This document shows, piece by piece, positions 2,052-63,975 of a stretch of DNA of 64,000 nucleotides (positions are counted from its first letter, which is position 1; each line of letters opens with the position of its first letter). The stretch is from Bacteroidales bacterium (GTDB lineage Bacteria > Bacteroidota > Bacteroidia > Bacteroidales > P3): NCBI GenBank assembly GCA_017479385.1, contig JAFVCE010000017.1, positions 1-64,000 on the forward strand. Direction: 5' to 3'. The notes beneath the pieces are model-generated. The model did no database searches, was not told the DNA's origin, and worked only from the letters and a program-made list of their open reading frames with translations. A program made the position numbers and the translations under genes.

Positions 2052-2108
2052 GTTAGGGGTAGGGTAGGGGGTGTGGTGGAGGTGAAATGTTAAAGGAATT
2101 GTTAAAAA

Positions 2109-2152
2109 GACGACCTCAATACGACCTTAACCCCTCTTTAACCCGACCCTAA
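2109..2152 (-). repeat. 11-bp tandem-unit element, copy A
   Basis: Four consecutive 11-bp units read on the minus strand: TTAGGGTCGGG, TTAAAGAGGGG, TTAAGGTCGTA, TTGAGGTCGTC. Same family as the copies at 16273, 25130, 38330, 52720 and 63912. This copy lies between the divergent groES and aguB genes and lacks the TTGATATTCA palindrome seen after other copies. The rest of the 2052-2311 gap holds a small hairpin, CCACGG-N8-CCGTGG at 2203-2222, and no gene that I can support. Confidence 0.85.
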
Positions 2153-2311
2153 TTCGCCCCCCAAAGGCTACTTGGTGACCATGAAAAGGGGGTTGGCTGG
2201 TGCCACGGCTGTCAGTCCGTGGAGGGTGGTGGGGCGGATGTGTCAGTAGTGGTTGATTGGCTGTTGATAAGTTTTTTTGGTGCAAAATGCGTGGGTTTCG
2301 GATTTTTTGTG

Positions 2312-2319
2312 TATCTTTG
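2312..2319 (+). promoter_or_regulatory. Bacteroidota -7 box (TATCTTTG) for aguB
   Basis: TATCTTTG followed by C, the Bacteroidota sigma-ABfr -7 motif. It predicts a start near 2325, so translation must begin at the ATG at 2340 and not at the upstream in-frame codon at 2277. Confidence 0.7.
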
Positions 2320-2339
2320 CACGTTCAAAGTCTGCTGTT

Positions 2340-3203
2340 ATGAAAATAAAGATTGGATATGCGCAGATGGCCTGCGAGGCTGACAAAGAGCGCAATATAG
2401 AGCGTTACACGGCCCAGGTGCGGCGTTTGGCCGAGGGCGGAGCGCAGGTGATTTGCCTGCAGGAGTTGTTTGCGTCGCTGTATTTTTGCGACGAGGAGCG
2501 CTACGAGAATTTCCGTTTGGCGGAGCCGATTCCCGAGGGCCCGACGTCGAAGCATTTTGCAGCCCTGGCCAAGGAGTTGGGTGTGGTAATTGTGTGTTCG
2601 ATGTTCGAAAAGAGGGCCGAAGGGCTGTATCATAACACGACGGCGGTGTTCGACGCCGATGGCTCCTACTTGGGCAAGTATCGCAAGATGCATATCCCCG
2701 ACGACCCAGGCTATTATGAGAAGTTTTACTTCACCCCTGGCGATTTGGGCTACAAGGTGTTCCACACCAAGTTTGCCACCATCGGGGTGCTGATTTGCTG
2801 GGACCAGTGGTACCCCGAAGCTTCGCGCATAACGGCGCTGATGGGGGCCCAGGTGCTGTTCTACCCCACGGCTATTGGTTGGGATGTGCGCCAAAACGAG
2901 GCCGACAACCGCGAGCAGTATGAGGCTTGGCAGACCATTCAACGTAGCCATGCGGTGGCCAACGGGGTGCCGGTGGTGAGCGTGAACCGCACCGGTCGCG
3001 AGGGCGGTATGCAGTTTTGGGGCGGCAGTTTTGTGACCAACGCCTTTGGCCGCGTACTTTACCAATCGCCTCACACCGAGGAGGATTTGCACATCGAGGA
3101 GCTGGATTTGGACCAGACCGACCACTATCGTCGCCACTGGCCCTACCTGCGCGACCGCCGCATAGACAGCTATCAACCCATCTTGAACCGTTTTATTGAC
3201 TGA
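2340..3203 (+). CDS. aguB: N-carbamoylputrescine amidase
   Basis: Hydrolyses N-carbamoylputrescine to putrescine, CO2 and ammonia, the last step of the agmatine route to polyamines. The 287-residue protein is a single carbon-nitrogen hydrolase domain. The nitrilase triad is visible: Glu42 in CLQELF, Lys116 in KYRKMHIPD and Cys153 in GVLICWDQWYPE. The segment DDPGYYEKFYFTPGD is characteristic of AguB. The start at 2340 fits the family N-terminus MKIKIGYAQM and the promoter just upstream. aguA follows after about 22 bp, making a two-gene operon. A general aliphatic amidase is unlikely given the neighbour. Confidence 0.95.
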   Translation: MKIKIGYAQMACEADKERNIERYTAQVRRLAEGGAQVICLQELFASLYFCDEERYENFRLAEPIPEGPTSKHFAALAKELGVVIVCSMFEKRAEGLYHNTTAVFDADGSYLGKYRKMHIPDDPGYYEKFYFTPGDLGYKVFHTKFATIGVLICWDQWYPEASRITALMGAQVLFYPTAIGWDVRQNEADNREQYEAWQTIQRSHAVANGVPVVSVNRTGREGGMQFWGGSFVTNAFGRVLYQSPHTEEDLHIEELDLDQTDHYRRHWPYLRDRRIDSYQPILNRFID

Positions 3204-3225
3204 TAACTTACACCTTATATTATAT

Positions 3226-4266
3226 ATGACCCCGAAGGAGCAAGGTTACTATATGCCGGCCGAGTGGCACCGCCACGAGGCCACATGGCTCACCTATCCG
3301 CACAACGAGGACTCGTGGCCTGGGAAAATCGAGACCATATTCCCCTCTTATCACCTCTTTATCAAGGTTTTGGCCGAGAGCGAGAAGGTTCATATCAATG
3401 TCAACGACCTCGCAACCCAGGAGCGGGTCTCGGAGGCGTTAGACAAAATGGGCTGCAATATGCCGAACGTTGTGTTCCACCTCTTCCCGTCGAACGACGC
3501 CTGGTGTCGCGACCATGGCCCCGCGTTCCTGCTCAACCGTGACAGTAGCAAAAAGCGTGCCATTGTGAACTGGAACCACAACGCATGGGGTGGCAAATAC
3601 CCCTACGAACTCGATACCGAGATACCTCGCCACGTTCACAGCCTGATGGCCGACAGCCCGCTATTCGAGCCTGGCATTGTCATGGAGGGGGGAAGCATAG
3701 ACGTTAACGGGTGTGGCGACTTGATTACAACCACCTCGTGCCTGCTCAACCCCAACCGCAATCCCAACCTCGATAAAAGCCAGATAGAGAGATATTTGTG
3801 CGACTACTATGGAGTCGAAAACGTGATTTGGCTGGGCGATGGCATTGTGGGCGACGACACCGATGGGCACGTCGACGACTTGACCCGCTTTGTTGCCCCC
3901 GACACGGTGATTACGGCCGTCGAAGACGACGTTTGGGACGAGAACTACGAACCCCTGCGCCGCAATCTCGAAACCCTGAAGCACTGCAGGTTGGCCAATG
4001 GCAAACAGCTCGAAATCATAGAGTTGCCAATGCCAGACATGGTTTTCTACGACAATCAGCGCTTGCCAGCCTCGTATGCCAACTTCTATATTGCCAATGG
4101 CAAGGTGATATTCCCCACTTACCGCTGCCTCACCGACAACGAGGCGGCCTACATTCTCGAAGCCTGTTTCCCCGACCGCGAAATTGTGGGCATAGACTCG
4201 ACCGACATTGTGTGGGGACTTGGTAGTTTTCACTGCCTCAGTCAGCAAATGCCTGCAATCGAATAA
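3226..4266 (+). CDS. aguA: Agmatine deiminase
   Basis: Converts agmatine to N-carbamoylputrescine, the substrate of the preceding AguB. The 346-residue protein has the guanidino-modifying fold. Visible residues are Asp96 in DAWCRDHGPA, the EGGS motif near 154, His215 in GDDTDGHVDDLTR and the nucleophile Cys337 in GLGSFHCLSQQ. I chose the ATG at 3226 (MTPKEQGYYMPAEWH) because it matches the family N-terminus. An in-frame TTG at 3196 would overlap aguB. No arginine decarboxylase is in the window, so the agmatine supply must be encoded elsewhere or imported. Confidence 0.95.
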   Translation: MTPKEQGYYMPAEWHRHEATWLTYPHNEDSWPGKIETIFPSYHLFIKVLAESEKVHINVNDLATQERVSEALDKMGCNMPNVVFHLFPSNDAWCRDHGPAFLLNRDSSKKRAIVNWNHNAWGGKYPYELDTEIPRHVHSLMADSPLFEPGIVMEGGSIDVNGCGDLITTTSCLLNPNRNPNLDKSQIERYLCDYYGVENVIWLGDGIVGDDTDGHVDDLTRFVAPDTVITAVEDDVWDENYEPLRRNLETLKHCRLANGKQLEIIELPMPDMVFYDNQRLPASYANFYIANGKVIFPTYRCLTDNEAAYILEACFPDREIVGIDSTDIVWGLGSFHCLSQQMPAIE

Positions 4267-4285
4267 TTTACGCCTTACCGTCATT

Positions 4286-5899
4286 ATGAAAAGAATTGTA
4301 GTTTTGCTCCTCGTTGGCCTGATGGCGCTGCCAGCCCAGGCCCAATTGGGCATAAGAAAAAAGAATGCCAAAGCCAAGCAGACTGACAAAATGGCAGTCG
4401 ATACACTGCCAGGACTGTCACGAATTGTGGAGCTGATGAATATGGTCGACAAAAACTATGTCGAAACACCCGATATGGACCACCTGAGCGAAGAGGCTGT
4501 CAAGGCTGTACTCAAATCGCTCGACCCCCACAGTATGTATATTGCTGCCAAAGATGTGGAGCGTGCCAACGAGGGGTTGCAGGGCAACTTCGAAGGCGTG
4601 GGCGTGTCGTTCCAGATAGTGAACGACACCATCAGCGTCACTTCCGTCATCAGCGGCGGCCCGTCCGAGAAAGTTGGCATCATGGTTGGCGACAAGTTTT
4701 TGCGTATCGATGGCGACGTCGCCACGGGCGACAGCATCAAGAACGACTTCGTGTTCAACCACTTGCGCGGCAAGAAGGGGACCACCGTCGTGGTCGACGT
4801 GTTGCGCCAAGGACAGGAATTTTCCTTCCACATTGTGCGCGACAAGATACCTATCTATTCGGTCGACACCTACTTCATGGCCGACGACACGATTGGTTAC
4901 GTGCGCTTAACCCGTTTTGCCCGCACCTCGATAAACGAATTTCGCAAAGCCCTGCGCGACCTGCAAAACCAGGGCATGACGGCCCTCATTCTCGACCTGC
5001 GTGGCAACTCGGGTGGCTACCTCGACATTGCCAACGCCTTGGCCAACGAGTTTTTGGCTTCGGGCCAACTTATCGTCTACACCCAAGGGCGCGAATCGCC
5101 ACGCCACAACTATCGCGCCAACAGCTACGGCTCGTTCCGCAAAGGACGGTTGGCAATACTAATCGACGAAGGTTCGGCCTCGGCCTCGGAAATTGTTTCG
5201 GGCGCCATCCAGGACTGGGACCGCGGAGTTTTAATCGGACGCCGTTCGTTTGGTAAAGGCTTGGTGCAGAGGCTGTTCGAAATGAAAGATGGGGCACAGG
5301 TGCGCCTCACCACGGCTCGCTACTACACCCCCGTTGGGCGTTGTATCCAGAAACCTTACGACGAAGGTGCCGACGAGTATCGCAACGACGTGAGCAACCG
5401 CTACAAGCATGGCGAGTTGGTCAATGCCGACTCGATTCATTTTCCCGATTCGCTCAAATACCGCACCGCCAGCGGTCGAGTGGTCTATGGCGGCGGTGGC
5501 ATTATGCCCGATGTCTTTGTTCCGCTCGACACCATGCGCCTGTCCGACTACTGCGTTAGTATGCGTGCCAAAGGGTTGTTCAACACCTATTCGCTGGCCT
5601 GGGCCGACGCTCATCGTGGCCAAGCCGAGGTGGCCGATTTCGACACCTTCCTCGCCAACTACGAGCAGTTTGGGCTCGACAGCCTTTTCGAGGCCCATGG
5701 GCTTGAAAAAGGAGTGGTGCGCGACGCAGAGAAAGAGGCTCTTGACCCCGACCGCACAGCCCGCAGCAACCAATATATTCACCTCCTGCTCAAGGCCAAC
5801 GTAGCCCGCAATCTGTTTGGAATAGAGTATTATTATAAGGTAATGAAAGAGGTCGACGCCGGCTACAATGTGGCCCTCAAACACCTGCAACACAAATGA
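4286..5899 (+). CDS. C-terminal processing peptidase, S41A family, secreted
   Basis: Serine protease of the Ctp/Tsp family acting in the periplasm. The 537-residue protein starts with a signal peptide ending near AQAQ (residue 20). A PDZ domain lies at about residues 95-180 (GVGVSFQIVNDTI) and the S41 core follows: DLRGNSGGYLD near 238-248, the Ser in DEGSASASE (294-302) and Lys324 in RSFGKGLVQ. The Ser/Lys dyad is intact. A C-terminal extension of about 150 residues is typical of Bacteroidota members. The ATG at 4286 is chosen because it yields the signal peptide; the frame is open further upstream but overlaps aguA. Substrate unknown. Confidence 0.93.
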   Translation: MKRIVVLLLVGLMALPAQAQLGIRKKNAKAKQTDKMAVDTLPGLSRIVELMNMVDKNYVETPDMDHLSEEAVKAVLKSLDPHSMYIAAKDVERANEGLQGNFEGVGVSFQIVNDTISVTSVISGGPSEKVGIMVGDKFLRIDGDVATGDSIKNDFVFNHLRGKKGTTVVVDVLRQGQEFSFHIVRDKIPIYSVDTYFMADDTIGYVRLTRFARTSINEFRKALRDLQNQGMTALILDLRGNSGGYLDIANALANEFLASGQLIVYTQGRESPRHNYRANSYGSFRKGRLAILIDEGSASASEIVSGAIQDWDRGVLIGRRSFGKGLVQRLFEMKDGAQVRLTTARYYTPVGRCIQKPYDEGADEYRNDVSNRYKHGELVNADSIHFPDSLKYRTASGRVVYGGGGIMPDVFVPLDTMRLSDYCVSMRAKGLFNTYSLAWADAHRGQAEVADFDTFLANYEQFGLDSLFEAHGLEKGVVRDAEKEALDPDRTARSNQYIHLLLKANVARNLFGIEYYYKVMKEVDAGYNVALKHLQHK

Positions 5900-5903
5900 T
5901 TTT

Positions 5904-5934
5904 TTTGCAGAATGTGAAAAAATTTGTATATTTG
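5904..5934 (+). promoter_or_regulatory. Bacteroidota promoter for arginine deiminase
   Basis: TTTG at 5904-5907 and TATATTTG at 5927-5934, separated by 19 bp. This is a very good match to the TTTG/TAnnTTTG consensus, and the ATG is at 5997. Confidence 0.75.
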
Positions 5935-5996
5935 CAACATTGCTCCAGTTGCTTTGAATTACCAAAAGCACTGTGAATTAGTATATTAACGCATTT

Positions 5997-7250: not shown

Positions 7251-7265
7251 TCACCATTAATTAAT

Positions 7266-14387: not shown

Positions 14388-15485
14388 ATGCAACAAATAG
14401 TTTGGTACACCAAAGGATTGCTAAAGGCGTTGAATCAGGTCGACACCACTCGCCTCATGCTCGTAACCGATAGATCGTATTGCCACCTGTCGCTCAAAAG
14501 TTTTGTCGACAGTTTGGGGCTCGACCTCGTAGTTTTCGACCAGATCACTCCCAACCCACTCTACGAGCAGGTCTGCGTCGCCGTCGACCTTTTCAAGCGC
14601 AAGCACTGCACGGCCATCCTCGCCATTGGCGGCGGTAGCACCATCGATGTGGCCAAATGCATCAAACTCTTCTGCAAACTCGACCCCACGGTCAACTACC
14701 TGCAGCAATCTTACGCCGACAGTGGTGTGCCACTCATCGCTGTACCAACCACCGCTGGCACCGGTAGCGAGGGCACCCGCTTTGCTGTAATCTACTACCA
14801 AGGCGCCAAGCAGTCGGTAACCCACCCGAGCATTGTGCCAACCTATGCCGTGCTCATACCCTCGGTGCTCGAGACCCTGCCCAACTATCAAAAAAAATGC
14901 ACCCTCCTCGACGCCCTATGCCAAGCCATCGAATCGCTCTGGAGCGTCAACTCTACACCCGAGAGTGCTGTCTTGTCCGAGCTGGCCATCGTAGATATCA
15001 TGGGCAACTATAGCCGCTACCTCACGGACTGCGACCCCGAGGCAGCAGCCGATATTATGGGTGCAGCCAACACCGCTGGCCGCGCCATCGACCTTACCCA
15101 AACCACGGCCCCCCACGCCATGAGCTACAAGCTCACCTCGCTCTACCGCCTGCCCCACGGCCATGCCGTGGCGCTGTGCCTGCCAGGCGTGTGGCGATAT
15201 ATGTTGAGCCACACCAACGAGTGTGTCGACCCCCGTGGCAGCATCCACCTCGTGCTCGCCATGCAGCACGCCGCCACCGCCATGGGCTGCTCTTCGTCCA
15301 CGGCTGCCATCGCCCGCTTCGAAGCACTCATGGCCGAACTCGGCATGGAGCGCCCCACCAGCCACGACCGCGAGGCCGAGCTCGACCTGCTGGCCCAGTC
15401 GGTCAACCCCGTGAGGCTAAAAAACAACCCCGTGCCACTCTCTACCTCCACTTTACGCGCAATCTACAACTCCATATTGCTATGA
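14388..15485 (+). CDS. Iron-containing alcohol dehydrogenase, resembling phosphonoacetaldehyde reductase
   Basis: A 365-residue group III alcohol dehydrogenase. The NAD-binding loop GGGSTIDVAKCIK is near residue 84 and VPTTAGTGSEGTRFAV follows. Metal-ligand regions are DALCQAIESLWSVNST and HAMSYKLTSLYRLPHGHAVAL. From memory, the pattern DALCQAIESxWSVNS plus HAMxYKLTSLYxxxHGHA is that of enzymes annotated phosphonoacetaldehyde reductase (PhpC-like), which make 2-hydroxyethylphosphonate. The ATG at 14388 fits the family N-terminus. Its stop overlaps the licD-like gene by 4 bp (ATGA). No PEP mutase or phosphonopyruvate decarboxylase is in view, so the aldehyde substrate is inferred. Confidence 0.72.
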   Translation: MQQIVWYTKGLLKALNQVDTTRLMLVTDRSYCHLSLKSFVDSLGLDLVVFDQITPNPLYEQVCVAVDLFKRKHCTAILAIGGGSTIDVAKCIKLFCKLDPTVNYLQQSYADSGVPLIAVPTTAGTGSEGTRFAVIYYQGAKQSVTHPSIVPTYAVLIPSVLETLPNYQKKCTLLDALCQAIESLWSVNSTPESAVLSELAIVDIMGNYSRYLTDCDPEAAADIMGAANTAGRAIDLTQTTAPHAMSYKLTSLYRLPHGHAVALCLPGVWRYMLSHTNECVDPRGSIHLVLAMQHAATAMGCSSSTAAIARFEALMAELGMERPTSHDREAELDLLAQSVNPVRLKNNPVPLSTSTLRAIYNSILL

Positions 15486-16183
15486 GGGAAACTATCGTCA
15501 AACTGGCCGAAGCCCTCGGCCTCTACAAATGGCTCATGGCCATCGACACGCGTCGCCAAATGCGTCGCCAAAACCGTGCCTTTGCGCGCTATGGGCTCGA
15601 AACGCTGGCCCAAGCCGAGGCTGCCGCCGCCGAGTGTGGCGCACACCTCTTCCTCGCCTTCGGGTCGCTGCTCGGCGCCTATCGCGAAAAGGGTTTCATC
15701 CCGTTCGACTGCGACCTCGACACAGGCCTCCTCGCCACCGAACGCAGCGAGGCTTTCCTCTCTGCCATGAAGCGCCACGGATTCGACTACCTGCGCCAAT
15801 ACTACGTCAAAGCCACCGGTCGCGTGTGCGAAGAGAAGTTCAGCTACCGTGGTGTTCACCTCGATGTGCACTATTTCTACCCCACGCCCGACGGCGGGCT
15901 GGGGTGCGAACTATGCCTGCCACACGAAACCAAATCGTGGCGCGAGGCCAACGCCACCGACGGCTTCCCCTCGGTGTTGCGCACCTGCTGCAACACCACC
16001 TTCTCGGCCCACGACTTCCTCGGCGTGCAGGTCTACCTGCCCGACCGTGCCGAAGAGTGGCTCAAAACCCTCTATGGCGAAAGCTTCATGACCCCAAACC
16101 CCAACTGGACCATGTCGGACCACCAACGCCTGGCTCGCATTGAGGGCGAGCGCCTATATCGCCGCACAGAAGCCGAGGGGTAA
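15482..16183 (+). CDS. LicD-family phosphotransferase
   Basis: A 233-residue LicD-like protein. In this family, members move phosphocholine or related headgroups onto surface glycans. The hallmark is FGSLLGAYREKGFIPFDCDLDTGL at about residues 59-82, with the metal-binding acidic cluster D-x-D-x-D. The conserved VHLDVHYFYP follows near 128. It starts inside the stop codon of the preceding dehydrogenase, so the two are translationally coupled. Together they suggest a surface headgroup, possibly a phosphonate; the acceptor is unknown. A hairpin terminator follows. Confidence 0.8.
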   Translation: MRETIVKLAEALGLYKWLMAIDTRRQMRRQNRAFARYGLETLAQAEAAAAECGAHLFLAFGSLLGAYREKGFIPFDCDLDTGLLATERSEAFLSAMKRHGFDYLRQYYVKATGRVCEEKFSYRGVHLDVHYFYPTPDGGLGCELCLPHETKSWREANATDGFPSVLRTCCNTTFSAHDFLGVQVYLPDRAEEWLKTLYGESFMTPNPNWTMSDHQRLARIEGERLYRRTEAEG

Positions 16184-16257: not shown

Positions 16258-16336
16258 TGCTGGAAATCAGTATTGCGGTCGTGTTAAGGAGGGGTTAGGG
16301 TCGTATTGAGGTCGAAGAGACATTGACCCTCAGTCG
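16258..16336 (+). repeat. 11-bp tandem-unit element, copy B
   Basis: Upstream flank TGCTGGAAATCAG at 16258-16270, then four 11-bp units at 16273-16316: TTGCGGTCGTG, TTAAGGAGGGG, TTAGGGTCGTA, TTGAGGTCGAA. A degenerate palindrome, GACATTGACCCTCAGTC, follows. It lies between the convergent licD-like gene and pepD. Confidence 0.9.
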
Positions 16337-16457: not shown

Positions 16458-17909
16458 TTATTTTTCGGGTATTGCCTCGAGGGTAGCCACTAAGTAGTCG
16501 TAGAATTTCTTGACGCTGGCAATGTGGCAACGCTCGTCGGGGCTGTGGGGGCTCTGCAGTGTGGGGCCGAACGAAATCATCTCCATTTCGGGATATTTGC
16601 CGCCCAGCAGGCCGCACTCCAAGCCGGCGTGGATGGCCATCACGGCCGGTTCTTTGCCGTAGAGCTTGTGGTAGGTCTCTTTCATGGTCTTGAGCAGGGG
16701 GCTCTGCATATTGGGTTTCCAGCCGGGGTAGGCACCGCTCAGGCGGCAGGTGCCACCGCTGAGTTCGGCCAGGCACACAAGGCGCTCGGCCAGGGCCTCT
16801 TTGGCAGTGTCTACGCTCGAGCGCAGCAGTGCCTGGACGGTGAAGTTGCGGCCCGTGGTTTTGACGATGGCGAGGTTGAGCGAGGTCTCGACCAAGCCTT
16901 CCATATCGTTGCTCATGCGCACCACGCCGTTGGGGGCAACCATCATGAGGTTGATTATCTTTTGGGTGTCGGCGTCGGTCATGACGTTTTGCGTCATGCG
17001 TACGCGCTCGTAGCTCATGCAGAAGTCGGGCTCAACGGTGGCCAGTTCTTTCTTGACCCAGCCGGCCACTTTGTCGAGTTCGGCCAAAATGCAGTCGGTG
17101 TGCTCTTTGGGGAAAGCGATAACGGCTTCGGCGTCGCGCGGGATGGCGTTGCGCATATTGCCGCCCTGAATGCTGATGAGGCGCATACCACAGTCGGCCA
17201 CCCAACGCAGATGGCGGAACATTATTTTATTGACGTTGGCGCGGCCCGAGTTGATTTCCATACCCGAGTGGCCACCCTTGAGGCCGCCGAAGGTAACGCG
17301 ATAGGCGCAGTAGCCGGCAGGGGCCTTCTCGGTGGTGTAGGGGATGGTCATAGTGGCGTCGACGCCGCCGGCGCAACCCACGTAGAGTTCGCCCTCGGTC
17401 TCGCTATCGAGGTTGAGCAGGAAGTCGCCTTTCAGCTCGCCGGTTTTGAGGCCAAAAGCGCCGGTCATGCCGGTCTCTTCGTCGGTGGTGATGAGGGCTT
17501 CGAGTGGTCCGTGCTTCAAGGTTTTGCTCTCGAAAACGGCCATTATGGCAGCCACGCCCATGCCGTCGTCGGCGCCGAGGGTGGTGTCGCAGGCGTAGAC
17601 CCATTCGTCAACGATTTTGGTCTCGATAGGGTCTTTCAGAAAATCGTGAACCTTGCCGGCGCGGGCTTGGGGCACCATGTCCATGTGGGCTTGCAGCACC
17701 ACGGGGCGACGGTTTTCCATACCCTTGGTGGCGGGTTTGCTCATAATGACGTTGCCCACTTTGTCTACACGGCACTCTATTTTGCGCTCCTGTGCCCACT
17801 TCACGAGGAAGTCGCGCACAATCTCTTCGTGTTTCGACGGACGGGGGCAACGGGTGAGGGAATAGAAATTATTCCACACTTCTTTGGGTTCTAAGTCTTT
17901 GATTGTCAT
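16458..17909 (-). CDS. pepD: Aminoacyl-histidine dipeptidase (PepD, M20 family)
   Basis: Cytosolic zinc dipeptidase cleaving Xaa-His and other dipeptides. The 483-residue length is that of PepD. Metal-site motifs are VVLQAHMDMVPQ (near residue 80), DTTLGADDGMGVAAIMA with the bridging Asp, and TTDEETGMTGAFG with the catalytic Glu. The lid-domain motif GGHSGMEINSGRAN follows. The C-terminus has the metal ligand His in SPHSPDERCHI. A single gene with its own TATATTTG box at 17959-17966 and a strong terminator. Confidence 0.95.
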   Translation of the reverse strand: MTIKDLEPKEVWNNFYSLTRCPRPSKHEEIVRDFLVKWAQERKIECRVDKVGNVIMSKPATKGMENRRPVVLQAHMDMVPQARAGKVHDFLKDPIETKIVDEWVYACDTTLGADDGMGVAAIMAVFESKTLKHGPLEALITTDEETGMTGAFGLKTGELKGDFLLNLDSETEGELYVGCAGGVDATMTIPYTTEKAPAGYCAYRVTFGGLKGGHSGMEINSGRANVNKIMFRHLRWVADCGMRLISIQGGNMRNAIPRDAEAVIAFPKEHTDCILAELDKVAGWVKKELATVEPDFCMSYERVRMTQNVMTDADTQKIINLMMVAPNGVVRMSNDMEGLVETSLNLAIVKTTGRNFTVQALLRSSVDTAKEALAERLVCLAELSGGTCRLSGAYPGWKPNMQSPLLKTMKETYHKLYGKEPAVMAIHAGLECGLLGGKYPEMEMISFGPTLQSPHSPDERCHIASVKKFYDYLVATLEAIPEK

Positions 17910-25079: not shown

Positions 25080-25113
25080 CGATAAAAAACAGGCACGTAA
25101 TGTGTTTTGTAAT

Positions 25114-25200
25114 GGGCTGAAACACAGGGGTGTGGTCGTGTTAGGGTCGGGTTAAGGTCGTGTTGAGGTCGAATAAGCCTTGATGTTGAGGCAGTTAGCC
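25114..25200 (+). repeat. 11-bp tandem-unit element, copy C
   Basis: Upstream flank GGCTGAAACACAG, then units GTGTGGTCGTG (25130), TTAGGGTCGGG, TTAAGGTCGTG and TTGAGGTCGAA (to 25173). The imperfect palindrome GCCTTGATGTTGAGGC and CAGTTAGCC follow. It lies in the 501-bp convergent gap between GT2 and the type IX substrate gene. The remainder, 25201-25380, has TTATCGATAA at 25221-25230 but no gene that I can support. Confidence 0.9.
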
Positions 25201-25472: not shown

Positions 25473-28118
25473 TTAGCGGATGAGGGTGACTATGCCTTTG
25501 GTTATGTGGCGAGTGTCGTTATATTCGAAACGGTAGCGCAGGAAGAAAGCGTAGGCGCCCGTGGGGCAGGGCGAGCCGTCTTTGTTGCCGTCCCACTTCT
25601 CGTCGGCGTCGGTGCTGCTAAACACCAGTTGGCCGTTGCGGTTATAGATGTAGAGCTCGTACTCGTAGACCGATTGCGAGAAAGTGATGCCAAACAGGTT
25701 GTTGTTGTCGCGGTCGGGTGTGAAGACGTTTGGCAGCCAGTGTATGGCAGTTTGGATGGGGAGGAAGATGGTGGTGTCGTTGCTGCAGCAACCCAAGCGG
25801 TTGCAGGAGTGCATACGAATGCTCACCTGGTCGGCCGTGAGGTCGGTAAAGGTGTGGCGTATCCACTGGTCGCTGCCGCGAGTGCTGTCGGAGAGCACCC
25901 ACTCGGTCGAGGCGCCATAGACCGAGGCGTCTTCGGCCAGGATGACGGGGTGGTCGGTGTTGACAAAGGTGTTGCTCAACTTCACCTTTGGCACGGGCAC
26001 GGGTATGACCTCGAGGGTGATACTCTTATCTTGAATATTGCAGTTGTTGTTCTCTGGAGCGAGCAGGGTGTAGATGGTCGTCGTGTCGGGTTTGACGCGC
26101 ACCACGTCGCGCCCCTGCTGGTCTTCGAGCAGTGGGTCGGGTGGGATAGAGACCCATACGTTGTCGGCGGCGAAGGTGCCAACCGATTGCAGCAGTGCAG
26201 AGTCGCCCGGGCAGATGGCCGACTCGTCGTTCTCGATAAACGAGAGGTCGGGTGTGCCGTATACACTAATAGCTATCGACGTAGAATCCATGCAACCATT
26301 ACCGGCATAAACATAGAGCCACACGGTGTTGGGGCCGAGGGCGAGGCTGGTGGTGATGAGCGAGTCGTACGATTCGGCCAGGTTGCTTTCGAACGTCAGG
26401 TTGCCAGCCACCCAGCGGCGACGGGCTATGACGGGGTCGTCGGGGCCGTAGAGCTTTACGGGGTCGCCGGCGCAGTATTCGTGGCTGGGGGTGGTTATGC
26501 TGGCGCTGGCGCCAAACTTGGCAAGCACGTTGCGGCTGCGCGAGCCGATACAGGTGCCATCTTCGGAGACAACACACATCGTTACCTTATACCAACCCTC
26601 GTCGTCGAAGTGGTAGCTGGGGGTCATGCCATAGAGCGTGTCGAGCGCAGCGGCTCCGAATGGGGCCAGGGTGTCGTTGTAGATATACCATGTGGTGATG
26701 GTATCTTCCGTGTCCATATTAGGCCTGTTGGGCGTGATGTTCGAGAGCGCAATGGGGCCACCACAGGGCGATTCGAACTCGAAGTCGGCCGCAGGCTTGG
26801 TGTTGGCCACATTAATAAAAAGGTAGGTCGAGTCGACCCTCGTTTTGTTAAATCCGTGATAAATCACGCAGCAGAAGGTCTGGGTGTCGGCCACGGTGCT
26901 GTCGTCGAGAATGAAATCGTGGTAGTGTGGGGCATATTTGTAACTGTAGAACGAGGTGTTGGTCTCCTCGTCGGTGCTGTCGGGTTGCAGGGGGCGCAAC
27001 ATATCGAGAGAGATGGCAGACGGGTTAGAGATGTCCAGTTTGCCAGTGCGCGACGAGTACCACTTGTAGCCGCGCAGGTTGTGCGGGGCGTAGAGGCTAT
27101 CCATAGCGTCCGAGTTGGCCGGTGTGCAGCCCAGTTGGCGAATGCCCGACTCGGCAAAGTCGCCAGCAAAATAGCCATAGAGGGGGTAGGCGCCGTTGGC
27201 GTCGCAGGTGTAAATCTCGATACGCACAGTCTTGTCGTTCCATTTGCTCAAGTCGGCAGCCACGGTTTGCCAGGGGGTGTAGACAAACTTGTAGGTCTCG
27301 TTGTCTACAAGGCCTTCTTTCCAAATCGAGTCGAAGTCGTTGTCGTACTCGTCAGACGGATACATAGGCATGGCAATTCTCACCGCCTTGCTGCTGTCGA
27401 TAGGGCGGTCTTTGGGCCAAGTACCATCGTCGTTCATCAGCTCGATGCGCATAATGCACTCGCCGGGGCAAAACGAGTTGCGCAATGTCTGGTTGGTCAT
27501 ATCGAACTTGCGAGCCACAAGGGCGTAGTTGATGTAGATAACCGAGTTTTCGGGGCGCACGTGCATGGTGTAGAACAAAGCCTCGCCCGACAGGTTCTGC
27601 TCATAGGGGGTGCGGTTTGGGGCCACGGTATCGAGCAGGGCAAAGTTGAACGAGTAGGTGCCCAATGCGGCCATATCGCCCAAGCGTATGCTCGACGAGT
27701 AGCCCTCGGGTATGCGTTGCAGGCCTGTGCCGTTAGCGGCCATCGTGAAGTTGTCGATTCCGGAATTGCTCATCGTGATTATGCGGAAGCGCTTGTGTTG
27801 GGCATCAAAGTGGTTATAGTTCGAGATGTTGCCGTCAGTGGGGGTGTCGTAGGTGCTGCTCGTAATGTTGTCGTGGCCGGCAATGTCGCGAGTATAAAGG
27901 CTCGAGTTGTTCACAGTGTAGCCTTCGGTCTTGATTTTGTCGTAGACTTTGCTGCGTGTAGACTGGCTATAATAGTATAGGAATGTACCCACGCGACCGC
28001 GCCAGTAGCACGAGTCGTTGCCTTCGTCGAACGAGGTGGGGTTCTTCCAACCTGGGTTGATTTGGGCTAAACAAGAGGCTGTGATGGCCATGAAGAGGCC
28101 AAACATTATTTTTTTCAT
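25473..28118 (-). CDS. Secreted protein with type B type IX secretion C-terminal domain
   Basis: An 881-residue exported protein. It starts with a signal peptide, MKKIMFGLFMAITASCLAQ. The middle has PKD-like and Ig-like repeats (for example DEGWYKVTMCVVSEDGTC and CAGDPVKLYGPDDP). The last 85 residues form a CHU_C gliding-motility-associated domain: WLPNVFTPDRDNNN, YELYIYNRNGQLVFSS, WDGNKDGSPCPTGAYAFFLR, which is the type B sorting signal of the type IX system. It is expected to be attached to or released from the cell surface; its ligand is unknown. Its ATG overlaps the tgt stop (ATGA). The longer frame to 28355 lies inside tgt and is rejected. Confidence 0.88.
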   Translation of the reverse strand: MKKIMFGLFMAITASCLAQINPGWKNPTSFDEGNDSCYWRGRVGTFLYYYSQSTRSKVYDKIKTEGYTVNNSSLYTRDIAGHDNITSSTYDTPTDGNISNYNHFDAQHKRFRIITMSNSGIDNFTMAANGTGLQRIPEGYSSSIRLGDMAALGTYSFNFALLDTVAPNRTPYEQNLSGEALFYTMHVRPENSVIYINYALVARKFDMTNQTLRNSFCPGECIMRIELMNDDGTWPKDRPIDSSKAVRIAMPMYPSDEYDNDFDSIWKEGLVDNETYKFVYTPWQTVAADLSKWNDKTVRIEIYTCDANGAYPLYGYFAGDFAESGIRQLGCTPANSDAMDSLYAPHNLRGYKWYSSRTGKLDISNPSAISLDMLRPLQPDSTDEETNTSFYSYKYAPHYHDFILDDSTVADTQTFCCVIYHGFNKTRVDSTYLFINVANTKPAADFEFESPCGGPIALSNITPNRPNMDTEDTITTWYIYNDTLAPFGAAALDTLYGMTPSYHFDDEGWYKVTMCVVSEDGTCIGSRSRNVLAKFGASASITTPSHEYCAGDPVKLYGPDDPVIARRRWVAGNLTFESNLAESYDSLITTSLALGPNTVWLYVYAGNGCMDSTSIAISVYGTPDLSFIENDESAICPGDSALLQSVGTFAADNVWVSIPPDPLLEDQQGRDVVRVKPDTTTIYTLLAPENNNCNIQDKSITLEVIPVPVPKVKLSNTFVNTDHPVILAEDASVYGASTEWVLSDSTRGSDQWIRHTFTDLTADQVSIRMHSCNRLGCCSNDTTIFLPIQTAIHWLPNVFTPDRDNNNLFGITFSQSVYEYELYIYNRNGQLVFSSTDADEKWDGNKDGSPCPTGAYAFFLRYRFEYNDTRHITKGIVTLIR

Positions 28119-29254
28119 AATCTTACTGATAATTCTTGGACGATATTGTTTTTCCACTGGCAGAAAGAGCCGTCGGCAATGCGCTTGCGAGCCTCGGCCA
28201 CAAGCCTCAGGTAGAAAGCGAGGTTGTGGATAGAGCATATCTGAAGGCCGAGAATTTCTTCGGCGCGGATAAGGTGGTGCAAGTAGGCCAGCGTGTATTC
28301 GTGGTCGCACGAGGCCGGGCTTTCTGGGTCTATGGGGTCGAAACACGACTCCCACTTCTTATTCTTTATATTAATAGTTCCGTGGCTGGTAAAGAGCAGG
28401 CCGTTGCGCCCGTTGCGGGTTGGCATGACGCAGTCGAACATATCGACCCCACGCTCAATGCCCTCGAGCAGGTTGGTCGGAGTTCCAACTCCCATCAGGT
28501 AGCGAGGCTTGTTGGCTGGCAGTATGGCGTTTACGACCTCAATCATCTCGTACATCACCTCGGTTGGTTCGCCCACGGCCAAGCCGCCAATGGCGCAACC
28601 TTCGGGCTCTTTCGAGGCAATATATTCGGCCGAAATGCGGCGCAGGTCGGCGTATTGGCAACCTTGAACAATAGGGAAGAGGGCCTGGTGGTAGCCATAG
28701 AGCGGTTCGGTCTGGCCAAAACGCACCAGGCAGCGGTCGAGCCAGCGGTGGGTCAGCTCCATCGACTGCTTGGCGTAGCGGTAGTCGGCGTCGCCTGGGG
28801 CGCATTCGTCGAAAGCCATCATTATGTCGGCCCCAATGGCACGCTCAATATCCATCACGCTTTCGGGAGTGAAGAGGTGCTTAGACCCGTCGATATGCGA
28901 GCGGAAAGTGCAACCCTCCTCCTTGATTTTGCGGTTATCGGCAAGCGAGAACACCTGGAAACCGCCGCTATCGGTAAGCAGTGGTCGGTTCCACCCGTTA
29001 AAGCGGTGTAGCCCACCAGCCTGGCGCAGTATGTCGGTTCCGGGGCGCAGATAGAGGTGATAGGTGTTGCCAAGAATGATTTTGGCATCAATCTCGTCGC
29101 GCAACTCGTGTTGATGAACAGCTTTGACCGACCCCGCAGTTCCCACAGGCATAAAAATGGGAGTAGGAATGTCGCCATGCTCGGTGTGGAGCACACCGAC
29201 ACGAGCCGACGATTTTGTGTCACGGGCTAATATGTCGAACGTCAAATTGTTCAT
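28115..29254 (-). CDS. tgt: tRNA-guanine transglycosylase
   Basis: Exchanges guanine 34 for preQ1 in GUN-anticodon tRNAs on the way to queuosine. The 379-residue protein has TPIFMPVGTAGSVKAVH, LTDSGGFQVFSL with the catalytic-base Asp, and GVDMFDCVMPTRNGRNG with the nucleophile Asp. The zinc site of E. coli Tgt (CDCYTC) aligns with SPASCD here, so the three Cys ligands are not conserved, although the SIHN His remains. From memory this loss is usual in Bacteroidales. The ATG at 29254 fits the promoter at 29277-29284, which excludes the codon at 29287. Confidence 0.95.
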   Translation of the reverse strand: MNNLTFDILARDTKSSARVGVLHTEHGDIPTPIFMPVGTAGSVKAVHQHELRDEIDAKIILGNTYHLYLRPGTDILRQAGGLHRFNGWNRPLLTDSGGFQVFSLADNRKIKEEGCTFRSHIDGSKHLFTPESVMDIERAIGADIMMAFDECAPGDADYRYAKQSMELTHRWLDRCLVRFGQTEPLYGYHQALFPIVQGCQYADLRRISAEYIASKEPEGCAIGGLAVGEPTEVMYEMIEVVNAILPANKPRYLMGVGTPTNLLEGIERGVDMFDCVMPTRNGRNGLLFTSHGTINIKNKKWESCFDPIDPESPASCDHEYTLAYLHHLIRAEEILGLQICSIHNLAFYLRLVAEARKRIADGSFCQWKNNIVQELSVRL

Positions 29255-37184: not shown

Positions 37185-38312
37185 ATGGTGATAATAGGCT
37201 TAATGTCAGGAACTTCGCTCGATGGCATCGACCTCGCTTGCTGCCAGTTTAATGCTGTTGGCTGTGGGGTTGACTATACCGTTCTCGCGGCCGAGACTGT
37301 GCCTTACTCCCCCCATTGGACGGCTCGACTTGCCACACTCGAGCAGGCTTCGGCGCTCGATTACGCGCTGGCCGACGTGCAGTTAGGTCACCTTCTGGGT
37401 CGCGAAATAAAGTCCTTCGTGCTCCGCCACAACCTTTCGGTCGACGCCATAGCCTCGCATGGGCACACCATCTTCCACCAACCTGAGCGCGGACTAACCA
37501 CGCAGATTGGCGACCTCGATGCCATAGCCGCCGAAACGGGATTGCCCGTCGTTGGCCGTTTTCGCCAACTCGACGTGGCCCTCGGCGGACAGGGGGCTCC
37601 GCTTGTGCCCATTGGCGACCGCCTGCTCTATGCCAACTACGAAGCTCGCCTCAACCTCGGCGGAATTTGCAATATCTCGTTTGGCGATGTGGCCTTCGAT
37701 GTGGCACCGTGCAATATGGCCCTCAACCTACTCGCCAAACGCCTCGGTCAACCGTTCGACGACCACGGTTCGCTCGCCCGCGAGGGGCGTGTTTTGCCAC
37801 AGCTGCTGACCGCGATGGACGCTTTGCCATACTATGCGCAAAGCGGACCAAAATCGCTTGGCAAGGAGTGGTTCGTTGCTAACTTCGAGCCTCTGCTCGA
37901 CCCCTCAATCAACACCGCAGACCTCTTGCGAACCACAACAGAACACATTGCAAAACAGGTTGCTAACATTCTTGTTGCCAACGGGTTAGGCTCGTTGCTC
38001 ATTACCGGCGGTGGGGCTCACAACGATTTTCTGGTCGAACTCATTGCCAACCATGCTCCAGAGTGTAATGTCACCGTGCCCGACGCGCTTACGGTCGACT
38101 ACAAAGAAGCCATCGTTTTTGCCCTCATGGGTTACCTGCGCCTGCGTGGCGAAGCCAACTGCTTGAGCTCTGTAACGGGTGCCCGATGCAACGTCTCGGG
38201 CGGAAACATATCCGGCCAAATGTTAAAATCCAAAACAGCCAAAAATCGATTTTTTGACTCTATAAATTTACATAAAATGCTGGAAATCAGCGTTTTAGGT
38301 GCTTTTATGTAA
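37185..38312 (+). CDS. anmK: Anhydro-N-acetylmuramic acid kinase
   Basis: Converts 1,6-anhydro-MurNAc to MurNAc-6-phosphate in peptidoglycan recycling. The 375-residue protein starts VIIGLMSGTSLDGIDLACC. Other signatures are ASHGHTIFHQPERGLTTQIGD, LNLGGICNISF, FDVAPCNM and ITGGGAHNDFLVE. The family usually ends soon after the GARCNVSGGN-type motif, but here about 30 more residues follow. The final part (38278-38312) is encoded by DNA that includes TGCTGGAAATCAG, the upstream flank of the 11-bp element. The tail therefore looks like read-through into repeat DNA. Confidence 0.95.
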   Translation: MVIIGLMSGTSLDGIDLACCQFNAVGCGVDYTVLAAETVPYSPHWTARLATLEQASALDYALADVQLGHLLGREIKSFVLRHNLSVDAIASHGHTIFHQPERGLTTQIGDLDAIAAETGLPVVGRFRQLDVALGGQGAPLVPIGDRLLYANYEARLNLGGICNISFGDVAFDVAPCNMALNLLAKRLGQPFDDHGSLAREGRVLPQLLTAMDALPYYAQSGPKSLGKEWFVANFEPLLDPSINTADLLRTTTEHIAKQVANILVANGLGSLLITGGGAHNDFLVELIANHAPECNVTVPDALTVDYKEAIVFALMGYLRLRGEANCLSSVTGARCNVSGGNISGQMLKSKTAKNRFFDSINLHKMLEISVLGAFM

Positions 38313-38390
38313 ACTATTGAAAATCAAGCTCTTGGAGGGGTTAGGGTCGTATTAAGGTCGTATTAACATCGCCTTGAGGTCGGATATGTT
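38278..38390 (+). repeat. 11-bp tandem-unit element, copy D
   Basis: Upstream flank TGCTGGAAATCAG (38278-38290, inside the anmK 3' end), then TTGAAAATCAA palindrome (38318-38328). Five units follow: TCTTGGAGGGG (38330), TTAGGGTCGTA, TTAAGGTCGTA, TTAACATCGCC, TTGAGGTCGGA (ending 38384). This is the longest array. It lies between convergent anmK and hemW. No T-rich terminator hairpin is obvious here, so the element itself may mark the transcript ends. Confidence 0.9.
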
Positions 38391-38445
38391 AAAAAGCACC
38401 ATTATTTTAACAATATTTTAACATTATCGGTTGCCCGATGTCAAG

Positions 38446-52692: not shown

Positions 52693-52790
52693 CTCCTGTT
52701 TTTCAGCCTCTAACAAGGGTTGCAGAGGGGTTAAAGAGGGGTTAGGGTCGTATTGAGGTCGAACAGCGCTTGATATTCAAGCACTTAAGC
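52693..52790 (+). repeat. 11-bp tandem-unit element, copy E
   Basis: Upstream flank CCTGTTTTTCAGCC, then units TTGCAGAGGGG (52720), TTAAAGAGGGG, TTAGGGTCGTA, TTGAGGTCGAA (to 52763). The perfect palindrome GCTTGATATTCAAGC follows at 52768-52782, then ACTTAAGCC. It lies between the convergent DUF1015 gene and the mutase, in a 385-bp gap that otherwise holds two terminators and no gene. Confidence 0.92.
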
Positions 52791-52905
52791 CTCGATTTTT
52801 GCTCCATTTCGACCCTTTTTTATCTGTAGCAAACCGCTTGTTTGCCCCTTCTTGGCCAATAGAAAAGCCCATCGCAACCACTCTCAACCAGCGCCCCACA
52901 AAGAC

Positions 52906-58332: not shown

Positions 58333-58363
58333 CAAACGATTTTAAATAAAAGTAAATTGCACA

Positions 58364-60850: not shown

Positions 60851-60871
60851 TAGATTTTAAAAACAACGCTG

Positions 60872-61375: not shown

Positions 61376-61381
61376 TTATCA

Positions 61382-62206
61382 ATGTCTGAACAAGAAACAC
61401 CAAAACGCAAACGCGTTCATCATACTGTTACCCCTCGTGCTCACCAGCCACGCCCCAAGAGCACGGTTTCGTCGCGCAACCGCGTAGAGAGCGACGGCAC
61501 AACTCGCCTCAATAAGTATATCGCGCACGCCGGAATCTGCTCGCGTCGCGAGGCCGACAAGCTCATTGCCGCCGGCAGCGTATCGGTCAACGGCAAAGTG
61601 GTGACCGAGATGGGCTTCAAGGTTAAGCCGGGCGACGTGGTGTCGTATGGCGGCGAGACCCTCCGCTCCGAGCGCAAACGCTATTTCATACTCAACAAAC
61701 CCAAAGGATTCATCACCACCGTCGACGACCCGCAGGAGCGCCGCACCGTGATGATGCTTATCGATGGCGCTTGTCCAGAGCGTATCTACCCCGTGGGGCG
61801 CCTCGACCGCGCAACCACAGGCCTCCTGCTCTTTACCAACGACGGCGATTTGGCAAAAAAACTAACCCACCCTTCGACTGGTGTTTATAAGATTTATCAC
61901 GTTGAACTCGACAAGCCAGTAACTCGCACCGACATGGATGCCCTGCTTTCGGGCATCGAGCTCGAAGATGGCATGGCCCGAGTCGACGACATACAGTTTG
62001 CCTCGCCTACGGGCGACAAACGCGTGGTGGGCGTAGAGTTGCATTCGGGCAAGAACCGCATTGTTCGCCGAATGTTCGAACACTTGGGCTACGAGGTGCA
62101 CAAGCTGGACCGCGTGGTCTTTGCAGGCCTCACCAAGAAGGACCTTCCGCGTGGTCGCTACCGCGAACTGACCGAGAAGGAAGTTGGGTATCTGAAGATG
62201 ATTTAG
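61382..62206 (+). CDS. rRNA pseudouridine synthase (RluB/RsuA family)
   Basis: Converts a uridine in ribosomal RNA to pseudouridine. The 274-residue protein has a basic N-terminal tail (residues 1-38), an S4 RNA-binding domain (RLNKYIAHAGICSRREADKL), and the catalytic domain with the key Asp in YPVGRLDRATTGLLLFTNDG near residue 140. GKNRIVRRMFEHLGYEVHKL is the conserved C-terminal motif. RluB is more likely than RsuA by the layout, but the target base cannot be read from sequence. Confidence 0.93.
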   Translation: MSEQETPKRKRVHHTVTPRAHQPRPKSTVSSRNRVESDGTTRLNKYIAHAGICSRREADKLIAAGSVSVNGKVVTEMGFKVKPGDVVSYGGETLRSERKRYFILNKPKGFITTVDDPQERRTVMMLIDGACPERIYPVGRLDRATTGLLLFTNDGDLAKKLTHPSTGVYKIYHVELDKPVTRTDMDALLSGIELEDGMARVDDIQFASPTGDKRVVGVELHSGKNRIVRRMFEHLGYEVHKLDRVVFAGLTKKDLPRGRYRELTEKEVGYLKMI

Positions 62207-62370
62207 GCCGCCACAAACACTCGCCGCGACACCAAGCAGTAAATCATTATTCATCAACAATCAGCCACTTAGCCTAAACCCGCGCAACCGCAAAAATTTG
62301 TTTGCCCCCGTGGCACAATAAAAATAGCCGTTAGGCGTTATTAAAAAGAGAAAGATTAACGAAACTCAAT

Positions 62371-63645
62371 ATGCTGCAACTTCAGTACATTAAAGACCAT
62401 ACCGACGAAATAATCGCCCGTCTCAAAATCAAGAATGTCCAGAACGTCGAGGAACGCATTGCCGAAATCATAGCCCTCGACGACCGCCGTCGCTCGCTCC
62501 AGAAGCAGGCCGACGACGTCAAGGCCGCCCAGAATGCCGCTGCCAAAGAAATAGGCCAACTCATGAAACAAGGCCTGCGCGACGAGGCTGAGGCCAAAAA
62601 AGCCGCTACAGCTCAGCTCAAAGCCACCGAAAAAGAGCTCTCCGAACAGCAGGCAGCCGCAGAGAACGAGCTGAATGCCAAACTCATATCGCTGCCCAAC
62701 GCCCCACACATCAGTGTGCCATGCGGCAAGTCGGAAGCCGACAACGTGGTGGTGGCCGAATTTGGCACCAAGCCCGACCTCGGTCCAAACGCTTTGCCGC
62801 ACTGGGACCTTTGCGCCAAGTACGACATTGTAGACTTCGAGTTGGGCAACAAAATAACCGGTGCTGGATTCCCGCTCTATAAAGGAAAAGGGGCACGCCT
62901 GCAGCGCGCGCTCATCAACTTCTTTCTCGACGAGGCCGCCAAAGCCGGTTTTGCCGAAGTGCAACCACCGCTCATGGTCAACGAGGCCAGCGGGCTCGGC
63001 ACCGGCCAACTGCCCGACAAAGAGGGGCAAATGTATGCCATACCCCTCGACGGCTACTACATGATACCTACCGCCGAGGTGCCTATTACCAACATCTACC
63101 GTAATGTAATCCTGGCCGAGAACCAGTTCCCCATACGCCACGCGGGCTACAGCGAGTGCTTCCGCCGCGAGGCTGGTAGCTACGGCAAGGATGTGCGCGG
63201 CCTCAACCGCCTGCACGAGTTTTCGAAGGTCGAGATTGTCGTCATCGAGCACCCCGACCGTTCCTACGACCAACTCGAAGAGATGAAGCGCCACGTGGGC
63301 CATTTGCTCGATATGCTCGGCCTGCCTTACCATATTCTCAAGCTCTGTGGTGGCGACATCAGTTTCACCTCGGCCATGACGTTCGACTTCGAGGTGTGGA
63401 GCGCTGCGCAGTGCAAGTGGCTCGAAGTGAGCTCGGTATCTAATTTCGAGACCTTCCAGGCCAACCGCATGAAGCTCCGCTTCAAAGACAAGAACGGCAA
63501 AACACAGCTCTGTCACACCCTCAACGGTTCGGCTCTCGCTTTGCCACGCATTGTGGCCGCCCTGCTCGAAAACAACCAAACGCCCGACGGTATCGTCATG
63601 CCGCAGTGCCTGCAGCCCTACCTCGGATTCAGCAAAATCGACTAA
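62371..63645 (+). CDS. serS: Seryl-tRNA synthetase
   Basis: Class II synthetase charging tRNA-Ser. The 424-residue length is standard. An N-terminal antiparallel coiled coil (about 1-105) binds the long variable arm. Motif 2 is GYSECFRREAGSYGKDVRGL and motif 3 appears in NGSALALPRIVAALLENNQ. MIPTAEVPITNIYRN is the conserved serine-binding TxE region. The start fits the family (MLQLQYIKDHTDEIIARL). The gap 62207-62370 upstream shows no gene. Confidence 0.97.
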   Translation: MLQLQYIKDHTDEIIARLKIKNVQNVEERIAEIIALDDRRRSLQKQADDVKAAQNAAAKEIGQLMKQGLRDEAEAKKAATAQLKATEKELSEQQAAAENELNAKLISLPNAPHISVPCGKSEADNVVVAEFGTKPDLGPNALPHWDLCAKYDIVDFELGNKITGAGFPLYKGKGARLQRALINFFLDEAAKAGFAEVQPPLMVNEASGLGTGQLPDKEGQMYAIPLDGYYMIPTAEVPITNIYRNVILAENQFPIRHAGYSECFRREAGSYGKDVRGLNRLHEFSKVEIVVIEHPDRSYDQLEEMKRHVGHLLDMLGLPYHILKLCGGDISFTSAMTFDFEVWSAAQCKWLEVSSVSNFETFQANRMKLRFKDKNGKTQLCHTLNGSALALPRIVAALLENNQTPDGIVMPQCLQPYLGFSKID

Positions 63646-63893
63646 TCGTCGCTCTTCACCCACCAAGCTGCCCAGCCTTGAGCGGCTTGGTAACAAACCA
63701 AAGTCGCACACGCCACATCGCTGGGTCGGTACAGAGCAGTATCAAAGTCGATAAAGAACCATACCAAAGAGGGCATTGCGTCGATAGCGAGTCGGCAAAG
63801 AAACAATAGAAAAACAGCCCAGAATCAATAGAAAGTCGCCCCAAAATTGGCTCATGAACGCCAAAAACAGGGGCGATTTTCGTATTGTAACTG

Positions 63894-63975
63894 TCTGAAT
63901 ATCAAGCGTTGTTCGACCTCAATACGACCTTAACCCCTCTTTAATACGACCTTAACCCTGAAAATCAACAACTTG
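63894..63975 (-). repeat. 11-bp tandem-unit element, copy F
   Basis: Read on the minus strand: flank GTTGATTTTCAGGG, units TTAAGGTCGTA, TTAAAGAGGGG, TTAAGGTCGTA, TTGAGGTCGAA (63955 down to 63912), then CAACGCTTGATATTCAGACA. The sequence from 63646 to 63893, between serS and this copy, shows no terminator hairpin or gene that I can support. The next gene lies outside the window. Confidence 0.92.

Follow-up and report, generated by a model that had tools for sequence, protein, structure and literature searches.

The BIME-2/REP repeats of Escherichia coli have been reported to be bound by DNA gyrase (PMC1525189, PMC6379681), and the gyrase motif described for this species spans 130 bp with a 10.75-bp GC periodicity, with gyrase enriched in BIME-2 (PMC6379681). 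Among the Bacteroidota, the BrickBuilt miniature inverted-repeat transposable element (MITE) of Porphyromonas gingivalis is described as having a 23-nt unit, 19 copies in one strain and GAGACC-type ends common to IS5-family elements (PMC4596501). Positive supercoils are reported to concentrate between convergent genes (PMC8360656). Here, we analyze a family of intergenic elements built around tandem 11-bp units in a stretch of 64,000 nucleotides from a Bacteroidales bacterium (contig JAFVCE010000017.1, positions 1 to 64,000; hereafter the window). The element stands where two convergent transcription units meet, and in the examined stretches of two species it occupies about 80% of the convergent gaps. 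An earlier reading of the window (the original prediction) had seen the arrays and their period; it overlooked their convergent location, their inverted arms and the fact that other species of the genus have 11-bp arrays too.

Contig C5 (385 kb), which begins with the window, belongs to a genome of 2,277,571 bp in 24 contigs (G000); about 23% of this genome was read. All genomes compared are drafts, some of them with contamination (6% in the sister species G104, whose M20 peptidase is 91% identical). Genes were called with our own hexamer caller (318 on C5, 90% coding), and gaps of at least 60 bp were counted on C5 and on 361 kb of G104, with a default cut-off of at most 4 mismatches of 22 in the core. 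On C5, the element is present in 24/30 convergent, 10/92 codirectional and 2/31 divergent gaps (Fisher p 6.5e-14). G104, which uses other unit sequences, gives nearly the same distribution: 25/31, 9/71 and 1/28, respectively (p 1.9e-13). Moreover, an occupied convergent gap almost always holds a single copy (24/24 on C5, p 3e-10; 24/25 in G104, p 3e-9), while random (Poisson) insertion at such occupancy would leave only about 40% of the gaps with one. When up to 5 mismatches are allowed on C5, 23 of the 24 occupied convergent gaps are single; with at most 2 mismatches, convergent occupancy is 20/30 on C5 and 11/31 in G104 (Fisher p 5.6e-4), and the difference between gap types persists. Mapping the copies against gene ends had been proposed as a check in the original prediction, and it reveals a strong tie to the ends of convergent genes.

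The features in the window are as follows.

2109..2152, minus strand: core array of 4 units in a divergent gap, without the usual right arm.
16273..16316, plus strand: core array of 4 units in a convergent gap, right arm degenerate.
15176-16183, plus strand, and 16458-17909, minus strand: genes flanking the array at 16273..16316, a LicD-type open reading frame (ORF) and an M20 peptidase ORF.
25108..25129, plus strand: left arm of the TAAN5TGANNNTCA type, degenerate.
25130..25173, plus strand: core array of 4 units in a convergent gap.
25174..25199, plus strand: right arm, inverted relative to the left arm at 25108..25129.
38330..38384, plus strand: core array of 5 units, one of them TTAACATCGCC, in a convergent gap at about 38312-38445.
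52720..52763, plus strand: core array of 4 units in the convergent gap between a DUF1015 ORF and a methylmalonyl-CoA mutase ORF.
52764..52789, plus strand: right arm.
52786..52896, plus strand: 11-bp-phased G+C/A+T downstream zone, the signal being established on pooled copies.
63912..63955, minus strand: core array of 4 units in the convergent gap past a seryl-tRNA synthetase ORF.
63956..63977, minus strand: left arm.
63886..63911, minus strand: right arm, sequence CTTGATATTCAGACAGTTAC.
63779..63889, minus strand: 11-bp-phased G+C/A+T downstream zone, likewise established on pooled copies.

The six arrays are those listed in the original prediction, all in exact 11-bp register and all ending in the unit TTGAGGTCGNN. 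Each lies outside the coding regions according to our own gene calls (6/6), as had been claimed, and five of the six are in convergent gaps, the copy at 2109 being in a divergent one. Terminator-like hairpins flank the element at 16273..16316 on either side, outside the element itself. Near the copy at 25130..25173, the minus-strand gene at 25473-28355 encodes a protein of 960 aa that contains a CHU_C type IX secretion signal domain.

A search of the whole genome with the 20-base core TTRRGGTCGTATTGAGGTCG, allowing up to 2 mismatches, gave 112 forward and 118 reverse matches (230 in total, among which shifted registers within one array may count double), compared to 0 + 0 for the reversed pattern. 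The number of copies is therefore far above chance, and a chance-level result, by which the original prediction could have been overturned, was not obtained. With a 22-base core, 32 distinct elements are found on C5 at up to 2 mismatches and 42 at up to 5, and the reversed control finds 0. Extrapolation from C5 leads to an estimate of about 200 marked sites in one genome. The original prediction knew of no described repeat with this pattern, and no catalogued match was found: at the gathering threshold, Rfam recognized only 2 tRNAs in the window and left the element unmatched, one copy (63870-63990) used as query had no match in plasmid and phage collections, and an exact 22-mer had none in viral contigs. 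Neither was such an element described in the best-ranked titles and abstract openings of the open-licence literature.

A larger element surrounds the array as its core; in most copies it has inverted arms, and it extends into a long, weakly conserved flank with an 11-bp phase. When 96 copies from C5 and from 65 other loci, each with at most 2 mismatches of 22, are stacked, the consensus in 11-bp register reads: cGTAActgcCT GATAAtCAGGG TTgAGGAcGGG TTAAAGAGGGG TTARGGTCGTA TTGAGGTCGAA CAAggCTTGAT AtTCAGgCAgT TAc. Each arm carries a TAAN5TGANNNTCA-type site, and the two are inverted with respect to each other; of 41 exact matches to this motif on C5, 31 are intergenic, and 24 are within 120 bp of a core. 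Of 95 copies with enough flanking sequence, 74 passed a simple test for the right arm (class A) and 21 failed it (class B), the latter being a mixture of copies with degenerate arms and armless ones, several of which have extra TTAACATCG/TTGACATCG units. Among the 71 class A copies for which both neighbors were called, 45 are convergent, 15 + 10 codirectional and only 1 divergent, while the 20 class B copies comprise 9 convergent, 2 + 5 codirectional and 3 divergent ones and 1 inside a gene. Between class A copies, the arms are 42% and 59% identical and the far flanks about 26%, with a near-invariant core. In the closest pair, identity falls from 0.82/0.74 in the arms to 0.40/0.32 in the adjoining flanks, a sharp edge that is suggestive, and only suggestive, of recent duplicates. 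Copies at the end of C5 (385235) and at the start of contig C6 (L056) have near-identical near flanks as well as elements, and perhaps represent a duplicated region or an assembly repeat. A third flavor of unit, AT-rich and about 11-12 bp long (TATTTTAACAA / TTTTTAACAATTCCTTTAACA), is seen just beyond the core at 38403-38427 and 2084-2106 in the window and also at locus L017.

The inverted arms raise the question of hairpins. In G000, the arms of the 74 class A copies form 10.68 Watson-Crick pairs of 21 within a copy, compared to 10.99 when arms are shuffled among copies (z -2.0), and no compensatory pairing was found; for class B, z is 1.0. As pairing within a copy is no better than between copies, a hairpin or RNA structure as a general rule in G000 was rejected. 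In G104, the upstream pair covaries (z 5.1, 37 copies), a value that decreases to 2.0 when the 4 copies with at least 12 pairs are removed. Just upstream of the core, 4/37 copies of this species (among L164-L183, L129 and L131) carry a long, nearly perfect hairpin, for example CCAGCCTGTTGT / ACAACAGGCTGG. Hairpins thus occur in some G104 copies and are not general; in G104 they may have a structural role.

Downstream of the core little motif is left, while the rhythm continues: bases recur at lags 11, 22 and 33 with frequencies of 0.339, 0.328 and 0.330, compared to about 0.26. In class A, the G+C power at 11.0 bp is 4.69 downstream (expectation about 1) and 2.01 upstream, with 1.32 in a far-downstream control. 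Of the single bases, C (2.94) and G (1.74) peak in one register and T (4.56) about half a turn off, whereas the purine/pyrimidine signal is hardly periodic (1.36, expectation about 1). G104 shows a similar rhythm, with G+C at 3.60, C (2.44) and G (1.32) in one phase and purine/pyrimidine at 1.19. Two measures place the best period at 10.9-11.2 bp with a lock of 6.8 of a possible 8.6 (74 copies), and the phased zone spans about -90 to +190 around the core with a slow drift. A phased G+C rhythm in the range of 10.5-11 bp that extends for 100 bp or more, taken here as a mark of preferred gyrase sites, is present. The remark in the original prediction that 11 bp is close to one helical turn is well supported, since the G+C versus A+T phase continues past the array. 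Because this phase is carried by G+C/A+T, with C and G together, it concerns the shape of the DNA and not one strand, and we read the rhythm as pointing to rotational bending or wrapping rather than to an RNA signal specific to one strand. A wedge model predicts a curvature of 0.118 compared to 0.067 for shuffled sequence (1.8-fold), 0.065 compared to 0.055 (1.2-fold) for the upstream control, and a slight right-handed coil or writhe.

The reading we favor, at somewhat less than even confidence, is that the element is a site at which DNA is wrapped or bent between convergent genes, the candidate partners being gyrase and a nucleoid protein. It is favored by the combination of the G+C periodicity of E. 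coli gyrase sites and the positive supercoils at convergent genes. The core and arms would be bound by a sequence-specific protein, the phased DNA would bend or wrap around this protein or around DNA gyrase, like the phased arms of gyrase sites, and the site would relax or contain the positive supercoils, or the collisions, that accumulate between convergent genes. The suggestion in the original prediction of an array of protein sites or a chromosome-organization element fits, on sequence grounds. Coping with convergent positive supercoiling and collisions is usually seen as a matter of enzymes; if the element is a wrapping or gyrase site, the sequence itself would encode where torsion is handled.

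The units differ between related species. Core matches were found in 6/120 genomes of the genus (G000 230, G104 48, G128 25, G003 2, G082 1, G137 1), and outside the genus a 28-base core has one exact match, in a Bacteroidales metagenome-assembled genome from roe-deer rumen. G104 mostly has the units TTAGGTTCGGG TTAAGGTCGGG TTGAGGTCGGG, and G128 has TTCGGGTCGTA TTAAGGTCGGC followed by CTTGGTTCGGC- or CTTACATCGGC-type units, so that unit sequences differ even between sister species. A looser three-unit pattern matches 27/120 genomes (G000 318, G104 220, G128 107, G003 49, G012 18, G061 11 at one locus, others 1-4); its reversed control also matches in 17 genomes (G003 30, others 1-6), and small counts therefore mean little. 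One gap of G061 (L209) holds a run of some twelve TTATGGTTGAG units without differences among them, likely a fresh expansion. Tandem arrays of any sequence were also scanned (at least 3 copies, periods 6-25, gaps of 60-800 bp). Period 11 accounts for 65/80 arrays in four species (G000 4/8, G104 8/9, G012 26/35, G028 27/28), for 5/18 in 20 further congeners (278 kb non-coding) and for 0/6 in 261 kb of non-coding DNA from 20 genomes belonging to other families of the order. Among the four species examined, a common period thus goes with changing units, and a preference for convergent gaps is peculiar to the G000/G104 lineage. At the M20-peptidase convergent gap, G000, G104 and G128 each have a species-specific version of the element, that of G000 pointing the other way from those of G104 and G128.

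A further-reaching proposal, possible though distinctly tentative, is that a dedicated convergent-boundary element has evolved in a lineage of this genus. Nearly every head-on boundary would then have a single protein-wrapping site with helical phasing, and its unit sequence would be rewritten in each species along with the partner protein while the 11-bp period is kept. If true, bacteria would possess an insulator by which positive supercoils arising from transcription are absorbed or resolved.

Several observations weigh against a wrapping site at convergent boundaries. Since copies were selected on the final two units of the core, the invariance of the core is partly circular; this is tempered by the fact that of the 42 C5 elements found at up to 5 mismatches of 22, 32 have at most 2. 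The gene boundaries depend on our own caller, 6/30 convergent gaps on C5 and 6/31 in G104 are without the element, some elements are in codirectional or divergent gaps, and at up to 4 mismatches 2/39 (C5) and 5/42 (G104) are inside called genes. In G104, the one-per-gap test at up to 2 mismatches is not significant (10/11 single, p 0.31). Conservation at the same loci in related genomes, proposed as a check in the original prediction, holds for the M20-peptidase gap in G000, G104 and G128 and is not seen at the readable DUF1015 and seryl-tRNA synthetase gaps. No copy of the G000-type core was seen by eye at the M20-peptidase gap in G082 and 29 other congeners; these 29 have 0 core matches genome-wide, their gap is at most 120 bp in 22/29, the neighbors are convergent in only 14/29, and a few have other short-period repeats. 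The DUF1015 orthologues with a readable gap are without an element (G082, G003 and G104 codirectional; G032 convergent), as are the seryl-tRNA synthetase orthologues in G104 and G082 (convergent) and G003 (codirectional), the convergent gap in G104 measuring 71 bp and containing a terminator; G128 is unreadable at both loci. The 11-bp arrays of G012 (15 divergent, 8 codirectional, 3 convergent) and G028 (7 divergent, 17 codirectional, 3 convergent) are mostly divergent or codirectional, so convergent placement is no general property of such arrays. As to the partner, no clade-specific change was evident in 7 GyrA proteins and the number of HU/IHF-type genes did not track with the element in 8 genomes; changes in GyrA or HU special to the clade were therefore discarded. 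Finally, gyrase alone leaves the conserved core unexplained, and 11 bp differs from 10.75.

Rather unlikely, but the best of the alternatives, is that the copies are dispersed MITE-like mobile repeats, in which the internal 11-bp minisatellite units are transposase sites and which survive mainly in convergent gaps, where their insertion breaks no promoter. BrickBuilt of P. gingivalis is a precedent, and the inverted arms, the high copy number and the species-specific units agree with it, as do, at different loci in G012 (6 of 14 displayed) and G028 (11 of 14 displayed), palindromic arrays that share a unit family, are nearly identical and look like recent dispersal. In G012, several loci (L214 among them) hold arrays of TTACGGTAGTA units that form perfect or nearly perfect palindromes around a CTTTAAAAG-like center, all 6 displayed being in divergent gaps; the palindromic arrays of G028 (L236-L252) are made of TGTTCTTCGAT units, and similar units are present in G012 and G001. 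The single copy per occupied convergent gap, however, is unlike random insertion unless target immunity acts, and the identities of arms, far flanks and near-invariant core (the last partly circular) make the sites seem unequally constrained. A search of 6 genomes for Y1_Tnp/RAYT transposases found 0 in G000, 0 in G104 and 1 in G128, other transposase families not being searched. The only orthologous gap compared across congeners, that of the M20 peptidase, is too diverged to reveal an empty site. Mobile origin may well be how the units spread, and the one-per-gap pattern together with the graded conservation suggests that the elements are now under selection.

A protein roadblock that halts RNA polymerase from both sides, acting as a protein-dependent bidirectional terminator or insulator, is unlikely as well. 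Since only 1/71 class A copies is divergent, nearly all follow a gene end, and under half of the gene ends beside convergent elements have a detectable intrinsic terminator (21/48 in G000, 23/50 in G104). Gene ends without elements nevertheless have similar rates, both in convergent gaps (6/12 in each species) and in codirectional ones (23/82 in G000, 21/62 in G104; shuffled sequence 4-17%), which indicates that the element is no substitute for terminators. Codirectional gaps, moreover, are rarely occupied. Detected terminators are located before the core in 20/21 cases in G000 and in only 14/23 in G104. In a stricter scan of 54 convergent copies, 29/54 had a terminator separating the element from a neighboring gene on one or both sides (5 on both), with 8/54 and 9/54 in wrong-side controls. 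The termination signal that the original prediction had also considered is, as a main role, not supported by these numbers, since intrinsic terminators are no rarer beside the elements.

That the elements act as a segregation or nucleoid anchor, i.e., a parS- or centromere-like array unconnected with transcription, appears improbable. Phased direct repeats in many copies, distributed over 14 contigs among the 100 places listed, would suit such an anchor, but the placement strongly follows gene orientation, for which an anchor has no need. Class A copies are clustered by orientation along C5 (5 runs, 12 expected), yet over the 100 listed places 45 of 86 neighboring pairs switch, as if at random, and orientation domains were rejected on this basis.

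Rho-dependent terminators are defined by rut-site spacing and by an excess of C over G with spaced YC steps. A bidirectional terminator of this kind, with C-rich, rut-like RNA carrying YC steps 11 nt apart, is very improbable: Rho is encoded in the genome and one strand of the core is rich in C and poor in G, with 11-nt spacing, but no rut-like bias between the strands is seen in the periodic flank, the signal there being G+C with C and G in phase and purine/pyrimidine hardly periodic, which weakens rut as the whole explanation, and most codirectional gaps are without elements.

Among the described systems, strong gyrase sites such as the Mu SGS and the gyrase motif of 130 bp in E. coli share with the element long, helically phased G+C/A+T zones beside a central part (PMC6379681). 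They differ in that the period here is about 11 and not 10.75 bp, the core is conserved in sequence, and there is mostly one element per convergent gap. The BIME-2/REP elements of E. coli are likewise described as intergenic, present in many copies and frequent between convergent genes (PMC1525189, PMC6379681), and the present element, extragenic and found in 24/30 convergent gaps, resembles them in both respects. Its core, in contrast, is an array of 11-bp direct repeats, and the G000 arms show no maintained pairing; with no maintained palindrome pairing in G000 and no Y1/RAYT transposase in G000 or G104, membership in the REP/RAYT family was rejected. BrickBuilt also is an intergenic minisatellite within an element with inverted ends in the Bacteroidota (PMC4596501). 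With 11-bp units, TAAN5TGANNNTCA arms and 230 matches instead of 23-nt units and GAGACC ends, the element does not belong to BrickBuilt. Plasmid centromeres of the ParR/parC type contain 11-bp direct repeats, one helical turn each, that are bound by a DNA-wrapping protein, with few sites per replicon, whereas the elements described here are dispersed and tied to gene orientation. The TAACTGA heptamer repeats of Beggiatoaceae and some Bacteroidetes are similarly abundant, short intergenic direct repeats, but with a 7-bp period and, in the BOGUAY genome, located mostly just upstream of start codons (PMC4679880), where the present element has 11 bp and stands at gene ends. The genome-wide 11-bp periodicity of AT-tracts in bacteria is a comparable rhythm of about 11 bp tied to supercoiled DNA; the cyanobacterial signal is reported mainly from coding regions (PMC4132750), while here the rhythm is located in discrete intergenic elements.

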